Source of the DNA: an uncultured Ruminococcus sp.
Lineage (GTDB): Bacteria; Bacillota; Clostridia; Oscillospirales; Ruminococcaceae
Assembly (NCBI GenBank): GCA_947627175.1
Contig: CANQVA010000001.1
Coordinates: 124,001 to 188,000 of the forward strand
Reading direction: 5' to 3'
DNA length: 64,000 nt
Made by a program: the position numbers and the translations under genes. Under the pieces are notes generated by a model. That model saw only the letters and a list, made by a program, of their open reading frames with translations. It had not been told where the DNA came from and did no database searches. Below are positions 7,883 to 14,244 of the stretch, piece by piece. Each line of letters starts with the position of its first letter. The first letter of the stretch is position 1.

Positions 7883-9271
7883 TTGCTTTTAACTATCACA
7901 TATGAAGGGAAAAATACTCAGGATTTAGGCTATCTTTTGCATAAAAATCCTTACCGTTCACAACAGTTTGAACTTAATTCGGGAATGGCATATGTTTTTT
8001 ATCCTGAAGTATCAGACGAACGCACAACAGCCGTTTTATTGCTTGACATCAACCCTATAGACCTCGCAAGGGGAAAACTCGGTTCTAAAGACGGCGGACT
8101 GTTCGATTACGTCAATGACCGTCCCTATACTGCTTCTTCGTTTATGAGTACAGCAATTTCACGTATTTTCGGCACTGCCATGAGTGGAAGATGCGACAAA
8201 AAACAAGAACTGGCAGACAGTCCGATTAAACTTACCGCCTGTATACATATGATTCAGGGGAAAGACGATTTTGCACGAAAAATCTTTGAACCGCTCGGAT
8301 ATACAGTGAAAACTTCAAAGACAGTTCTTGACGAAAAATTTGAAGAATGGGGAGAAAGTCCGTATATAGATATTGAAATAAGCGGTACTGTAAAACTTTC
8401 TGAACTGCTTAATCATATATATGTGCTTATTCCTGTTTTTGACAAACAGAAACACTACTATATCAGTGAGGACGAAATTGAAAAACTCCTTTCTCATGGC
8501 GGTGAATGGCTTGCCGGTCACCCTGCACGGAATGAAATTATTTTCCGCTATTTCCTTATGAAAAAAAGCTATGCACACAGAACAATTGACCGCCTGCTTG
8601 AAAGTGAACCGACAGAAGAAGAAACAGAAGAAGAAAATGTTCCGAAAGAAGTAGAGGAAAACAGAATTTCCCTTAATACACAGCGTATAGAGGCAGTAAA
8701 AAATGCCGTTCTTGAAAGCGGTGCATCAAGCGTTATAGACCTCGGTTGCGGAGAATGTCGACTTACTAAAATTCTGCTTAATGAAAAACAGATACAAAAA
8801 GTCACCGCCGCAGACGTTTCAGTGCGTGAACTCGAAAAAGCAAAAACAAGACTACATTATGATACTATGCAATCATACAGAAAAAATAAACTCACTCTTA
8901 TTCAGGCATCACTTACATATAAAGATAAACGCTTTTACGGTTATGATTGTGCCTGCGTTGTTGAGGTAATAGAACATATAGAACCGTTGAGAATATCGGC
9001 TTTTGAACGTTCATTATTTGAATTTGCAAAACCTAAAACAGTAGTTCTCACTACCCCCAACAGGGAATATAATGAAAATTATGATTTTCTGAAAACGGGT
9101 GAATTGCGTCACAATGACCATCGCTTTGAATGGACAAGGGAAGAATTTGAAAAATGGACTCGGCATATATGTGAAAAATTCGGGTATACAGTTAAAATAA
9201 GCGGAATCGGCGATTATGACGAAAAATACGGAACGCCGACACAGATGGGAGTGTTCACAAAATGCGTATAG
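7883..9271 (+). CDS. hen1: Hen1: 3'-terminal RNA ribose 2'-O-methyltransferase
   Basis: 462 residues. It methylates the 2'-OH at the broken end of an RNA before Pnkp seals it, protecting the joint from being cut again. The N-terminal half (TITYEG, DLGYLLHKNP, FYPEVSDERTTAVLLLDINPI) is the ligase-activating domain of bacterial Hen1. The C-terminal half is the SAM methyltransferase with VIDLGCGECRLTK and the metal-binding VVEVIEHIEP, then TTPNREYN. The start is probably the TTG at 7883 (AAAGGAG eight bases ahead, protein begins MLLTITYEG as in the family). The GTG at 7874 lies inside the ribosome site. Overlaps pnkp by 10 bp. Confidence 0.95.
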   Translation: MLLTITYEGKNTQDLGYLLHKNPYRSQQFELNSGMAYVFYPEVSDERTTAVLLLDINPIDLARGKLGSKDGGLFDYVNDRPYTASSFMSTAISRIFGTAMSGRCDKKQELADSPIKLTACIHMIQGKDDFARKIFEPLGYTVKTSKTVLDEKFEEWGESPYIDIEISGTVKLSELLNHIYVLIPVFDKQKHYYISEDEIEKLLSHGGEWLAGHPARNEIIFRYFLMKKSYAHRTIDRLLESEPTEEETEEENVPKEVEENRISLNTQRIEAVKNAVLESGASSVIDLGCGECRLTKILLNEKQIQKVTAADVSVRELEKAKTRLHYDTMQSYRKNKLTLIQASLTYKDKRFYGYDCACVVEVIEHIEPLRISAFERSLFEFAKPKTVVLTTPNREYNENYDFLKTGELRHNDHRFEWTREEFEKWTRHICEKFGYTVKISGIGDYDEKYGTPTQMGVFTKCV

Positions 9272-11823
9272 AAATACCTGAATTTGCCCTTGTCGCAATG
9301 GTAGGGGCAACTTCAAGCGGAAAGACAACATTTGCAAATAAAAAATTCAAATCTACGGAAGTACTATCATCAGACTTTTTCCGTGCAATGATTTCGGACG
9401 ACGAAAACAATCAGGACGTTTCACATGAGGCTTTTGACCTGCTTTTCTATGCAGCAAAAAAACGTCTTGAACTTATGAAACTTACTGTAATTGATGCTAC
9501 CAACTTACAGCAGTCAGCAAGAAAACAAATTATAAATCTCGCCCATGAACAGAACGTCCACAGTGTCGCAATAGTTCTCAATCTGCCCGAAAAAATTCTT
9601 ATTGAAAGAAATAACACACGTGAAAACCGTGGTTTTCCTGAAAGGGTTATTCATAATCACTGCAACGACCTGAAAAGAAGTATAAGAAATCTGAAACGTG
9701 AAGGATTCAGATTTGTATATGTACTTAATTCAATTGAAGATATTGAAAACGCTGAAATTGTCCGTACAAAGTTATGGAACAATAAAAGCGACGAACACGG
9801 CCCTTTCGATATTATCGGAGATATTCACGGCTGTTTCGGTGAACTTAAAGAATTACTGACAAAACTCGGATACGTTGAAAATGAAAACGGCGTACCTGTT
9901 CACCCCGACGGCAGAAAAGCCGTTTTTCTCGGTGATTTCTGCGACAGAGGTTCGGATAATGTCGGAGTTCTGAAACTTGTAATGAAAATGGTAAAATCAG
10001 GTAATGCCCTTGCGGTTGCAGGAAATCATGATGTAAAACTTGTAAAATATCTGAATGGAAAAAGATTACAGCTTACTTACGGTCTTGACAAAACTGTTGA
10101 CGAACTCTCACTTCAAAGTGAAGATTTCAGAAAAGAAGTTCATGATTTCATGGACGGTCTTATAAGTCATTATGTACTTGACGACGGAAAACTTGTTGTA
10201 TCTCATGCAGGAATAAAACAAGAATATATCGGTCGTGGTTCGTCACGTGTAAGAGAATTTTGCATTTATGGCGACACTACGGGAGAAACTGACGAATTTG
10301 GACTTCCCGTCCGTCTTGACTGGGCTTCCGATTACAGAGGACGTGCAACTATTGTATATGGTCATACGCCGTCAAAAGAAGTGCAGGCTGTAAACGGTAC
10401 TTTCTGCATTGATACAGGTTGTGTTTTCGGAGGAAAACTAACTGCTATGCGTTATCCCGAAAAAGAATTTTCAAGCGTTGACGCATATGAACAATATTAC
10501 GAACCCGCCAAACCCCTTGATACAAAAGAAGATATTGGCGATATGCTTACAGTAGGCGATTTTCAGGGAAAAATGCATCTCACAACAGAACTTATTCCGT
10601 CCATAAGCATAGACGAAAACAACGCCGCTGCCGCACTTGAAATAATGTCACGTTTTGCCGCTGACCCTCATTGGCTTATTTATCTTCCGCCTACTATGTC
10701 ACCATGTGAAACAAGTAAAATTGACGGCTGGCTTGAACATCCACTTGAGGCTTTTGAATACTACAGAAAAAACGGAATTAAAAATGTAGTGTGTGAAAAG
10801 AAACACATGGGTTCAAGGGCGGTAATAATTCTTTGTCATGACATAAAAACCGCTGAAAAGCGTTTCGGAATAAATGACGGCACTTTCGGTATTATCTACA
10901 CAAGAACAGGCAGACGCTTTTTTGAAAATACAGAAACAGAAAAGGAACTGCTTGAAAGACTTGACAATGTTCTTACTTCAAATAATTTCTGGGACGATTT
11001 CAACACGGATTGGGTTTGCCTTGATACTGAACTAATGCCGTGGTCTGAAAAAGCACAAGGACTTATTAAAACACAGTATGCACCCGTCGGAAATGCCGGA
11101 CATAATGCACTCGGTTCAGCGGTTGAACTGCTTGAAAAAGCCTGCCGTCGAAATAATAACGCATATGAAGTCAGTGAAAAGACTTCCGGGCAGAATACTG
11201 ACCTGAATGAAGTTCTTGAAAAATTCCGTTTCAAAAAGAACGCAATTGACAAATATATAAACGCCTACAGAGAATACTGCTGGACAGTAAAATCAACCGA
11301 CGATTTCAGAATTGCACCGTTTCACATACTCGCAGTTGAGGGAAAAGTTTTTGACCATGAAAAACACATATGGCATATGACGAATATCAAAAAGTATATC
11401 AGCGGAAATGACCCTGTTTTTATTGTAACTCCGTATATATGCGTTGATACAGAGGACGAAATAAGCATTGAAAACGGTGTGAAATGGTGGGAAGAACTTA
11501 CTGCTTCGGGCGGTGAGGGAATGGTTGTAAAACCTGAATACTATACAGCAAAACAAGGCGTAAAACTTCTACAGCCTGCTGTAAAATGCAGAGGACGTGA
11601 ATATCTTAGAATTATTTACGCTTCGGAATATCTTGAACCCTCCAATCTGAAAAGACTGAAAAAACGTTCTCTTTCAAGAAAAAGAAATCTCGCATTAAAA
11701 GAGTTTTCTCTCGGTATGGAATCACTTAAAAGATTTGTAAGGAATGAACCGCTTTACAAAGTACATGAATGTGTTTTCGGCATACTGGCATTTGAAAGTG
11801 AACCTGTTGACCCACGACTTTAA
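9262..11823 (+). CDS. pnkp: Pnkp: polynucleotide kinase-phosphatase-ligase
   Basis: 853 residues with all three modules of bacterial Pnkp. Kinase (about 1-170): P-loop GATSSGKT at 15-22, phosphorylating 5'-OH ends. Binuclear-metal phosphatase (about 180-400): GDIHG (Asp187, His189), GDFCDRG (Asp225, Asp228), GNHD (Asn255, His256), removing 2',3'-cyclic or 3' phosphates. Ligase/adenylyltransferase (about 470-853): KHMG with Lys514 as the likely AMP acceptor, LDTELMPW, EGMVVKP and a late PAVKCRGREYLRI. It needs Hen1 to seal. Starts inside the last codons of hen1 (ATGCGTATAG overlap), so the two are translationally coupled. Full length and intact. Confidence 0.96.
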   Translation: MRIEIPEFALVAMVGATSSGKTTFANKKFKSTEVLSSDFFRAMISDDENNQDVSHEAFDLLFYAAKKRLELMKLTVIDATNLQQSARKQIINLAHEQNVHSVAIVLNLPEKILIERNNTRENRGFPERVIHNHCNDLKRSIRNLKREGFRFVYVLNSIEDIENAEIVRTKLWNNKSDEHGPFDIIGDIHGCFGELKELLTKLGYVENENGVPVHPDGRKAVFLGDFCDRGSDNVGVLKLVMKMVKSGNALAVAGNHDVKLVKYLNGKRLQLTYGLDKTVDELSLQSEDFRKEVHDFMDGLISHYVLDDGKLVVSHAGIKQEYIGRGSSRVREFCIYGDTTGETDEFGLPVRLDWASDYRGRATIVYGHTPSKEVQAVNGTFCIDTGCVFGGKLTAMRYPEKEFSSVDAYEQYYEPAKPLDTKEDIGDMLTVGDFQGKMHLTTELIPSISIDENNAAAALEIMSRFAADPHWLIYLPPTMSPCETSKIDGWLEHPLEAFEYYRKNGIKNVVCEKKHMGSRAVIILCHDIKTAEKRFGINDGTFGIIYTRTGRRFFENTETEKELLERLDNVLTSNNFWDDFNTDWVCLDTELMPWSEKAQGLIKTQYAPVGNAGHNALGSAVELLEKACRRNNNAYEVSEKTSGQNTDLNEVLEKFRFKKNAIDKYINAYREYCWTVKSTDDFRIAPFHILAVEGKVFDHEKHIWHMTNIKKYISGNDPVFIVTPYICVDTEDEISIENGVKWWEELTASGGEGMVVKPEYYTAKQGVKLLQPAVKCRGREYLRIIYASEYLEPSNLKRLKKRSLSRKRNLALKEFSLGMESLKRFVRNEPLYKVHECVFGILAFESEPVDPRL

Positions 11824-11836
11824 GAAGGTGAGAAGA

Positions 11837-12544
11837 ATGAATTTCAGAGATATGAACGGGCATTTTTCCGCACAGACCGATGCAGAAAAAGGCAATTGCC
11901 GTTTCCGTGATATGAACGGTAAAATGCCGAAAAAAGTCACTAAAAATATACCTGCTCCGAAAAAGATACCGCCTGACAATACAAATAATATTTATACACA
12001 GAATCAAAGTATACAATTTCCGCAGAATCAGAGTATGCAATTTTCGCAGAATCAGAGTATACAGTTTCCACAGAATCAGAGTATACAGTTTCCGCAAAAT
12101 CAAAGTATGCAGTTTCCACAGAATCAGAGTATACAGTTTCAACAGAATCAGAGTATGCAGTTTCAACAGAATCAAAGTATGCAGTTTCCGCAGAATCAAA
12201 GTATGCAATTTCCGAACAGTCGGAATATTTATCAGAACAATATGCCGAATGTGCAAGAAAAACCGCATAATAAATTTGCATATAATAATTATAATAATAC
12301 TCCCGTTTCTCCGCCTACGCCTCCACCTCTTCCGAAACCTGACCCGCCACAACCCCCGAAACCCGAAATTCCTGTACCGACACCACCGCCAAGAATGGTA
12401 AAGCCTGCCCCCGTCAAAAGAAGAAAAACTGATGATTTCAGTATGGATTACGGTTCATTTGCAGGAACTTTTGATGACAACCCCGACCAGTCAACGCCAA
12501 TAGCCGATATTCCGGTAATGAATATTGACGATTATAAATTATAA
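11837..12544 (+). CDS. Q/N-rich tandem-repeat protein downstream of pnkp (unknown)
   Basis: 235 residues, third gene of the RNA-repair operon, 13 bp after pnkp with its own AAGGTGAG site. I do not recognise a domain. N-terminus: the phrase FRDMNG occurs twice (about residues 3-8 and 24-29). Middle: nine perfect-length 8-residue repeats of the form QNQS(I/M)QF(P/S/Q). Then a segment rich in Pro (PPTPPPLPKPDPPQPPKPEIPVPTPPP), a basic patch (PVKRRK) and an acidic tail. The whole chain looks disordered and is prion-like in composition. No signal peptide or membrane helix. A scaffolding or condensate role with Pnkp/Hen1 is only a guess. Confidence 0.7.
   Translation: MNFRDMNGHFSAQTDAEKGNCRFRDMNGKMPKKVTKNIPAPKKIPPDNTNNIYTQNQSIQFPQNQSMQFSQNQSIQFPQNQSIQFPQNQSMQFPQNQSIQFQQNQSMQFQQNQSMQFPQNQSMQFPNSRNIYQNNMPNVQEKPHNKFAYNNYNNTPVSPPTPPPLPKPDPPQPPKPEIPVPTPPPRMVKPAPVKRRKTDDFSMDYGSFAGTFDDNPDQSTPIADIPVMNIDDYKL
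11999..12214 (+). repeat. Nine tandem 24-bp repeats
   Basis: Nine in-frame units of 24 bases (CAG AAT CAR AGT ATR CAR TTT ...) encoding QNQS(I/M)QF(P/S/Q). Differences are mostly third-base or Ile/Met swaps, so the array is recent or kept uniform by slippage. The minus-strand ORFs seen here are shadows of the array. Confidence 0.95.
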
Positions 12545-12762: not shown

Positions 12763-12797
12763 AAAAGCGACTAAAATTTTTCAGTCGCTTATTTTTA
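12763..12797. terminator. Bidirectional terminator between converging units
   Basis: AAGCGACT (12765-12772) and AGTCGCTT (12783-12790) form a perfect 8-bp stem. It lies 11 bases past the stop of the binding-protein gene on the minus strand and also faces the plus-strand operon. A T-rich tail is present on the plus side. Confidence 0.75.
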
Positions 12798-12807
12798 TTG
12801 GCATTTC

Positions 12808-13590
12808 TTATTCTCTTACAATAATTACCTGACTTGAAACTGCATAGCTTTGTGTGAAATCAACGTTTTCTGAGCGTTCGGGAGTAACGGAAATTCCTGC
12901 GACACCTATATCCGATTCACCGCATGAAACAGATGCAATTATTGAGCTGAAATCCATATTTTTTACTTTCAGTTCCATTCCGAGTTCATCACATATAGCC
13001 GTTGCCATATCAATATCAAAACCCACTATTTCACCTCCTTGTTCAATACTTTCATAAGGCGGAAATTCGGCATTTGTTGCCATAACAAGAGTGCCTGTTC
13101 TTTCTACATCTGATTTCGGGGTATATGACTTATGGTCAGGCTTATTTCCAATCCAATGTCTTGAAATATCATCAAGTGTACCATCACTTTTTAATTTTTC
13201 AATGGCACTGTTAAGTTTTTCGCCAAGTTCTGTATTTCCCTTTTTATATGCAATAGCATATTCTTCTTCATTGAAAGGATTTGACAGTATTTTAAGATTA
13301 TCATTTTCATTTATCAATTCCTGTGCAGTGAGTTTGTCAATAATAACAGCGTCCACATCTTTTTTTAAAAGTGCCTGAACAGCTTCGTTTCCGTCCTTGT
13401 ATTTTTGAACTTTTGCGTCCTGAATATCTCCTGCAAGAATAAAGCCTGTTGTACCAATCTGTGCACCTATAGATTTACCTTTAAGGTCATCAGCATTGTT
13501 AATATTAACAGAATCTTCTTTATCACCGCAACCGCTGAAACATGAAACAGCAATTATAAATGCAGATAGTAAACCGACAACTTTTTTCAT
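12808..13590 (-). CDS. Circularly permuted amino-acid-binding lipoprotein (SBP_bac_3)
   Basis: 260 residues. Signal with lipobox FSGC (Cys21), so a membrane-anchored solute-binding protein. The order of its halves is reversed. Residues about 31-147 (NADDLKGKSIGAQIGTTG to DDISRHWIG) are what normally forms the middle and C-terminus of a family-3 binding protein. Residues about 166-260 (TLVMATNAEFPPYE, GFDIDMATAICDELG, PERSENVDFTQSYAVSSQVIIV) are what normally comes first. A 17-residue linker joins them. The cut falls exactly at the hinge between lobes, so a normal fold with new ends is likely. No permease or ATPase gene is nearby. The ligand is probably an amino acid. Confidence 0.9.
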   Translation of the reverse strand: MKKVVGLLSAFIIAVSCFSGCGDKEDSVNINNADDLKGKSIGAQIGTTGFILAGDIQDAKVQKYKDGNEAVQALLKKDVDAVIIDKLTAQELINENDNLKILSNPFNEEEYAIAYKKGNTELGEKLNSAIEKLKSDGTLDDISRHWIGNKPDHKSYTPKSDVERTGTLVMATNAEFPPYESIEQGGEIVGFDIDMATAICDELGMELKVKNMDFSSIIASVSCGESDIGVAGISVTPERSENVDFTQSYAVSSQVIIVRE

Positions 13591-13764
13591 AAAAAATTCC
13601 TCCTGATTAAATTCATTATTATTTTGCCATGCATTATTTTATCATTTTTGAGTGAAAGTGTCAAGTCGTTTTAAATGAAAATGTTTTAATTTATGAGAAT
13701 GTTATTTTTTTCACAAAGCCGTCATAATATTAACTTATAGTTTACACTAAACAGTATTAGTATT

Positions 13765-13781
13765 ATTTAACCTGGTTAAAT
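13765..13781. promoter_or_regulatory. Palindromic operator ahead of the MarR gene
   Basis: ATTTAACC-T-GGTTAAAT, perfect 8-bp arms, 20 bp before the marR start. Its size and place fit a MarR dimer site used for self-control. A weaker relative lies at 14260-14272. Confidence 0.65.
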
Positions 13782-13800
13782 AAAAGGGAGGGATATTTTT

Positions 13801-14244
13801 ATGGCGACTCGTGAGTATACTCTAAGTGTTTTGGAAAGACTTCACGGAAAAACCTCTGAAGACGTTGTCAGAAAATTCAATGACGACAACGCCGGCATAA
13901 GCTGTATGCTTAAATATCTTCAGGAAGTAGGCAAACCTGTTTCCGCCGGAGAAATAAGCAGGCATATGCACGTAAGCACGGCAAGAATTTCTGTACTGCT
14001 TAAAAAAATGTCGGAGAGGAATTTTATAATCCGTGGAAATAGTTCAGAGGACGCAAGAAGACTGATGATTTCGCTTTCAGAGAAGGGCAAAGCTGAATGT
14101 TTAAGACGTAAGGAAGAAATGATTGATATTTTCAGCAGAATTATTGATGAAATAGGTGAAGAAAGAATGGAGGAATTTATAAGTATTTCGCAAGATATAA
14201 AAAAAGTTGTGAATGAAGAGATAAAAAAGCTCCCAACAGATTGA
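13801..14244 (+). CDS. MarR-family transcriptional regulator
   Basis: 147 residues. Winged helix-turn-helix in the centre: VGKPVSAGEISRHMHVSTARISVLLKKMSERNFIIRGNSSEDARRLMISLSEKG, with the wing Asp-Ala-Arg-Arg typical of MarR. The long helices at both ends form the dimer interface. Ribosome site GGGAGGG ahead of the ATG. It lies 49 bp upstream of a two-subunit ABC exporter on the same strand, so it most likely represses itself and the exporter and lets go when a toxic ligand binds. Two inverted repeats with TAACC/GGTTA half-sites flank the gene. Confidence 0.92.
   Translation: MATREYTLSVLERLHGKTSEDVVRKFNDDNAGISCMLKYLQEVGKPVSAGEISRHMHVSTARISVLLKKMSERNFIIRGNSSEDARRLMISLSEKGKAECLRRKEEMIDIFSRIIDEIGEERMEEFISISQDIKKVVNEEIKKLPTD

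Follow-up and report, generated by a model that had tools for sequence, protein, structure and literature searches.

The window, by which we mean the whole stretch of 64,000 nucleotides analysed here (uncultured Ruminococcus sp., GenBank assembly GCA_947627175.1, contig CANQVA010000001.1, positions 124,001 to 188,000), carries on its minus strand an open reading frame of 260 amino acids at positions 12808-13590, with an ATG start and an intact frame. The gene, its parts and its flanking signals were assigned as follows:

12808..13590, minus strand: CP1-type permuted family-3 solute-binding lipoprotein, whole gene, 260 aa
13528..13590, minus strand: signal peptide and lipobox FSGC with Cys21
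13147..13518, minus strand: canonical C-half in first place, residues 25-148, comprising most of lobe 2, the hinge-2 strand and the C-terminal part of lobe 1
13099..13146, minus strand: hydrophilic linker NKPDHKSYTPKSDVER, residues 149-164, bridging the former C- and N-termini
12811..13098, minus strand: canonical N-half (lobe 1), residues 165-260, ending in the intact hinge-1 strand QVIIVRE, which is the new C-terminus
13636..13664, minus strand: sigma-70-type promoter TTGACA-17-TAAAAT, 11/12 matches, with extended -10 TG
13599..13604, minus strand: ribosome-binding site AGGAGG
12765..12790, minus strand: intrinsic terminator with an 11-bp stem

The name CP1 is used here for the order of the window protein, C-half then N-half. 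Cys21 was invariant in the alignment of 53 CP1 relatives, and similar TTGAC(A/T)...TAAAAT elements lie upstream of the permuted gene at the loci L035 and L036, its closest relatives. That the gene is whole, with signal and lipobox, had been stated in an earlier sequence-only reading of this DNA and was borne out by the complete frame and the FSGC motif. Elsewhere in the window, a perfect palindrome, TATTTAACCTGGTTAAATA (13764-13782), lies just upstream of a divergent MarR-type gene (13801-14244) and is likely an operator, and a 24-bp tandem repeat occurs nine times at positions 11999-12214, encoding QNQS(I/M)QFP/Q units within an ORF rich in proline and glutamine. A predicted 853-aa kinase-phosphatase-ligase resembling bacterial Pnkp is encoded at 9262-11823; the 465-aa ORF just upstream of it appears to be Hen1-like, and the two would form a putative RNA repair pair.

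Using phmmer against PDB chains, residues 27-148 of the window protein were matched to residues 106-232 of AncQR (4zv1), an ancestral amino-acid-binding protein, and residues 165-259 to AncQR residues 9-103. The Pfam model PF00497 (SBP_bac_3) was matched in two stretches (E = 4e-36; 124 bits compared with a cut-off of 26.4), the best of which placed profile positions 1-92 at query residues 168-260, at the C-terminus of the window protein. The sequence-only reading had proposed an alignment to a normal protein doubled in tandem as a check, and for this the canonical clostridial protein L158 was used as reference. Residues 24-260 of the window protein aligned continuously to the doubled reference, in one match across the junction, with a score of 586, compared with 312 for single L158 and a maximum of 68 for 50 shuffled controls. 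The E. coli proteins gave doubled versus single scores of 312 vs 186 for GlnH, 294 vs 190 for ArtJ, 182 vs 133 for HisJ, and 322 vs 206 for TcyJ. The segments follow the order C-half then N-half, and the canonical order with N before C was not found. Halves from two different families, or incomplete halves, were looked for and did not turn up: both halves are complete, belong to a single family, and are continuous with the doubled normal protein. With phmmer, Pfam and the doubled-reference alignment in agreement that the halves are swapped, the window gene encodes a family-3 solute-binding protein (SBP) that is naturally circularly permuted, as had been proposed. Against the NCBIfam model TIGR01096 the window protein scored 147.9 (curated cut-off 256.35), and it fell below the cut-offs of the NCBIfam equivalog models for GlnH, TcyJ and ArtJ by a wider margin still. 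The NCBIfam and Pfam models that it matched were all of the family-3/type II kind; type I sugar binders (MglB family) were not among them.

Mapped onto E. coli GlnBP (mature numbering), the permuted chain begins and ends at Lys95/Ala96. With the GlnBP hinge strands at ~85-89 and 181-185, the cut falls within the first lobe-2 loop, directly behind the hinge-1 strand, and leaves both hinge strands in place. The proposal that the new ends fall at the hinge between the lobes was thus right as to their being beside the hinge, but the cut itself is located in lobe 2. Of the ligand-contact positions of GlnBP, the window protein keeps F13, F50, A67, G68, R75, and D157 and has substitutions at five others (D10N, T70S, K115Q, G119T, and H156I); K115Q and H156I may alter ligand specificity. 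Gln44, Asp85, and Arg239 (window numbering) are invariant in the 53 CP1 relatives. The fold prediction that had also been suggested was performed using AlphaFold2 with an alignment of the 53 permuted relatives, and the chain in its permuted order was confidently modeled as one compact chain (pLDDT 91.9, pTM 0.83). A Foldseek search of the CP1 model against the PDB gave TM values of at most 0.5 for all matches listed; the method is order-dependent, and such values are expected of a permutant but do not on their own establish the fold. Among the matches listed, no PDB sequence covered in order the profile of CP1, or that of the second permutant CP2 described below, except for the GlnPQ SBD1-SBD2 junction.

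Full-length collinear matches to the window protein (36-61% identity) were found in ~60 of 298 other genomes of the same family, by hand count among the matches listed, and the CP1 frames of these genomes are mostly about 260-340 aa long. Class and phylum samples added more families with the CP1 order, which is widespread across Clostridia, and the plasmid collection gave no match. Domain order was checked in 59 CP1 neighbourhoods (L069-L127) using a profile from 21 canonical proteins; one of these loci, L098, has an internal stop and was not cleanly classified. In 54 of the 59 neighbourhoods a GlnP-type permease adjoins or is fused to the CP1 protein, and a GlnQ-type ATPase is nearly always present at these loci too. 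The recurrence of this order in dozens of genomes, accompanied by a conserved operon, rules out both an assembly error and a two-family chimera, and the CP1 rearrangement is natural and kept by selection. One further protein (L180:2683-4530) combines a type I binding domain (Peripla_BP_4) with a C-terminal CP1 family-3 domain.

The second natural permutant, CP2, came to light through matches spanning just query residues 94-260. It consists of a signal peptide, canonical positions 200-253, a linker, and then canonical positions 32-202; this order was found in 20/20 sampled loci (L128-L147, e.g., L129:6767-7573), and a permease and an ATPase accompany it in 19 of them. The AlphaFold2 model of CP2 had a pLDDT of 87.9, and its in-order 170 residues superposed at ~1.7-2.0 Å on several ligand-bound canonical proteins. 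The CP1 and CP2 cuts are both in lobe 2, the former next to the hinge-1 strand and the latter next to that of hinge 2. A third cut, slightly downstream, was seen at L184:2724-3581 and L185:193-1044, where the new C-terminus retains the helix that follows hinge 1.

Tandem arrays of the order C-(N-C)k-N were present in frames of about 600-1300 aa, in which a C-half comes after the signal sequence and an N-half comes last. A permease domain follows the array in all Pfam-scanned cases (L169, L172, L177, L179, and L187), and further arrays of this order were found at L125, L171, L173, L174, L176, and L178. At L179 the array, permease and ATPase make up a whole importer in one chain. In these arrays either the outer halves pair together or the chain is a string of CP1 domains, and for a C-NC-N array both possible pairings of halves give an identical coevolution signal. 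The arrays would be natural intermediates of permutation or of its reversal, and may be products of permutation instead of precursors; an origin of the window protein from such an array, or from tandem copies as the sequence-only reading had suggested, is possible.

For the phylogenetic analysis, trees were constructed from 224 alignment columns with the halves restored to canonical order. CP1, CP2, and canonical proteins intermingled in these trees, and the AU test rejected a single clade both for all CP1 proteins (p 0.0005) and for all CP2 proteins (p 0.001). With L126, L113, and L184 left out, a single clade was not rejected for the main CP1 group (p 0.21), the groups having been set by domain order before the trees were built and this reduced CP1 set having been chosen after they were seen. 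The canonical protein L152 adjoins the CP1 protein L089 with support of 100/97, and CP1 L113 and canonical L160 are 68% identical. Since neither CP1 nor CP2 is one clade, permutation arose or reverted repeatedly; there were several events, each a gain or a reversion, and the 224 columns with the present sampling fit both. We would suggest tentatively, and with slightly more doubt than confidence, that recurrent permutation has a hotspot in the clostridial family-3 SBPs, with two main lobe-2 cut points, several independent origins and possible reversions, probably by way of permease-fused C(NC)kN arrays that closed end-to-end or formed strings of permuted domains.

The explanation that we consider very likely, taken with all of its steps, is that the window protein is a type II SBP of family 3 (polar amino acid) in a naturally permuted form. 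The chain would have been cut in the first lobe-2 loop, and the old termini, both on lobe 1, would have been joined by a linker of ~16 residues. With both hinge strands and most ligand-contact positions kept, the protein should still close on an amino acid in the manner of a Venus flytrap, and its lipid anchor would have been transferred from lobe 1 to the start of lobe 2. For most relatives, whose CP1 protein is encoded with a GlnP-type permease or fused to one, with a GlnQ-type ATPase alongside, the operon structure points to a role as uptake receptor. The permuted order most likely originated from a tandem or fused intermediate that shed its outer halves. The window copy would most likely be an orphan amino-acid-binding lipoprotein under selection that serves in scavenging, sensing, or ligand hand-over to some partner, which is the least certain step.

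The orphan status is the most likely one because a polar-amino-acid permease of the TIGR01726 (HEQRo) type was not found in the window's genome (98.7% complete, 70 contigs). The same permease search succeeds in other genomes, and this one yielded 11 matches to other ABC permeases; a distant permease could have been overlooked in the 70-contig assembly. The sole other SBP_bac_3 protein of the window's genome is a hybrid sensor kinase (L168:2352-5576, contig C4) with two binding domains, HisKA, HATPase, and a receiver. The lack of a cognate permease, together with the longer branch to the group of the window protein, L035, and L036 (0.38-0.5), might also be explained by a decaying relic, that is, a functionless binding protein that lingers after loss of its transporter operon. 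We regard this as unlikely: dN/dS between the window gene and L035/L036 is 0.12-0.16, with synonymous change near saturation, and the gene retains an intact frame, its lipobox, promoter and terminator, and most of the ligand residues. The three genomes also have the same synteny, a neighbourhood of divergent MarR gene, ABC exporter, and ABC exporter. These neighbours were considered as definers of the function of the permuted gene, and this was dropped, orphan CP1 genes elsewhere having unrelated neighbours. The window copy is best read, from its sequence, as a selected single-gene amino-acid-binding lipoprotein that probably outlived its own transporter.

It could further be argued that the window protein is a piece of a tandem SBP array, the C-half of one domain with the N-half of the next, and that it does not fold into a single domain, given that C(NC)kN arrays occur in relatives and that SBD1-SBD2 of GlnPQ (6h30) has the same order across its domain junction. 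We hold this to be very improbable, as the window protein has a stand-alone frame with a signal peptide of its own, dozens of relatives likewise stand alone and have their own permease, and AlphaFold2 predicts one compact chain (pLDDT 92, pTM 0.83). The source genome is a draft of 70 contigs, and yet the chance of an assembly or annotation artefact is negligible: full-length copies 78-79% identical to the window protein are present in two other assemblies (L035 and L036), and independent assemblies of about 60 further family genomes, including megabase-size contigs (G118 and G187), refute it.

Compared with the canonical family-3 SBPs (PF00497; E. coli GlnH, ArtJ, and TcyJ; AncQR 4zv1), the window protein has all the same structural segments, the same lobe architecture and most of the contact residues, and its relatives share the GlnP/GlnQ-type operon genes; it differs in having the C-half first and both termini and lipid anchor at the start of lobe 2. 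Natural permutation is already known from other binding proteins. TpMglB-2 (Tp0684), a glucose-binding lipoprotein of the circularly permuted 'Type Ic', has homologs in Gram-positive bacteria, and membrane tethering was put forward as a possible reason for its permutation (PMC4990184). Like the window protein it is a binding lipoprotein whose chain is naturally permuted, whereas its fold is type I (cluster B, sugar-binding) and of another family, with a one-lobe permutation and an added fourth cross-over. The glycine-betaine-binding proteins OpuAC (2b4l) and ProX (1r9l) and molybdate-binding proteins were grouped by CPSARST into a permuted structural family with members below 24% identity (PMC2395249). 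They too show permutation in two-lobed binding proteins, but their relation is structural, whereas the present case can be read in the sequence at ~50% identity and concerns an amino-acid family. GlnPQ, with a tandem SBD1-SBD2 fused to the permease (6h30; PMC8025302), is like the arrays described here in combining multiple SBPs with a permease and in having a C-half followed by an N-half at its domain junction, but its domains are each canonical, whereas the arrays open with a C-half and close with an N-half. No description of a CP1 or CP2 family was found in NCBIfam, PDB sequences or the literature, and no report of permutation in family-3 amino-acid-binding proteins was found in the freely accessible literature.

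Natural permutants that can be read in the sequence at high identity are uncommon. In the present family permuted and unpermuted members coexist with their transporters, which makes the origin and reversal of permutation directly testable. The normal-order family models score the permutants far below their cut-offs, and gene naming overlooks them for this reason. For biosensor design the natural cut points offer ready-made sites, and the system is suited to asking whether the shift of the anchor from lobe 1 to lobe 2 affects docking to the permease and how a flytrap works with a hinge strand at the end of the chain.
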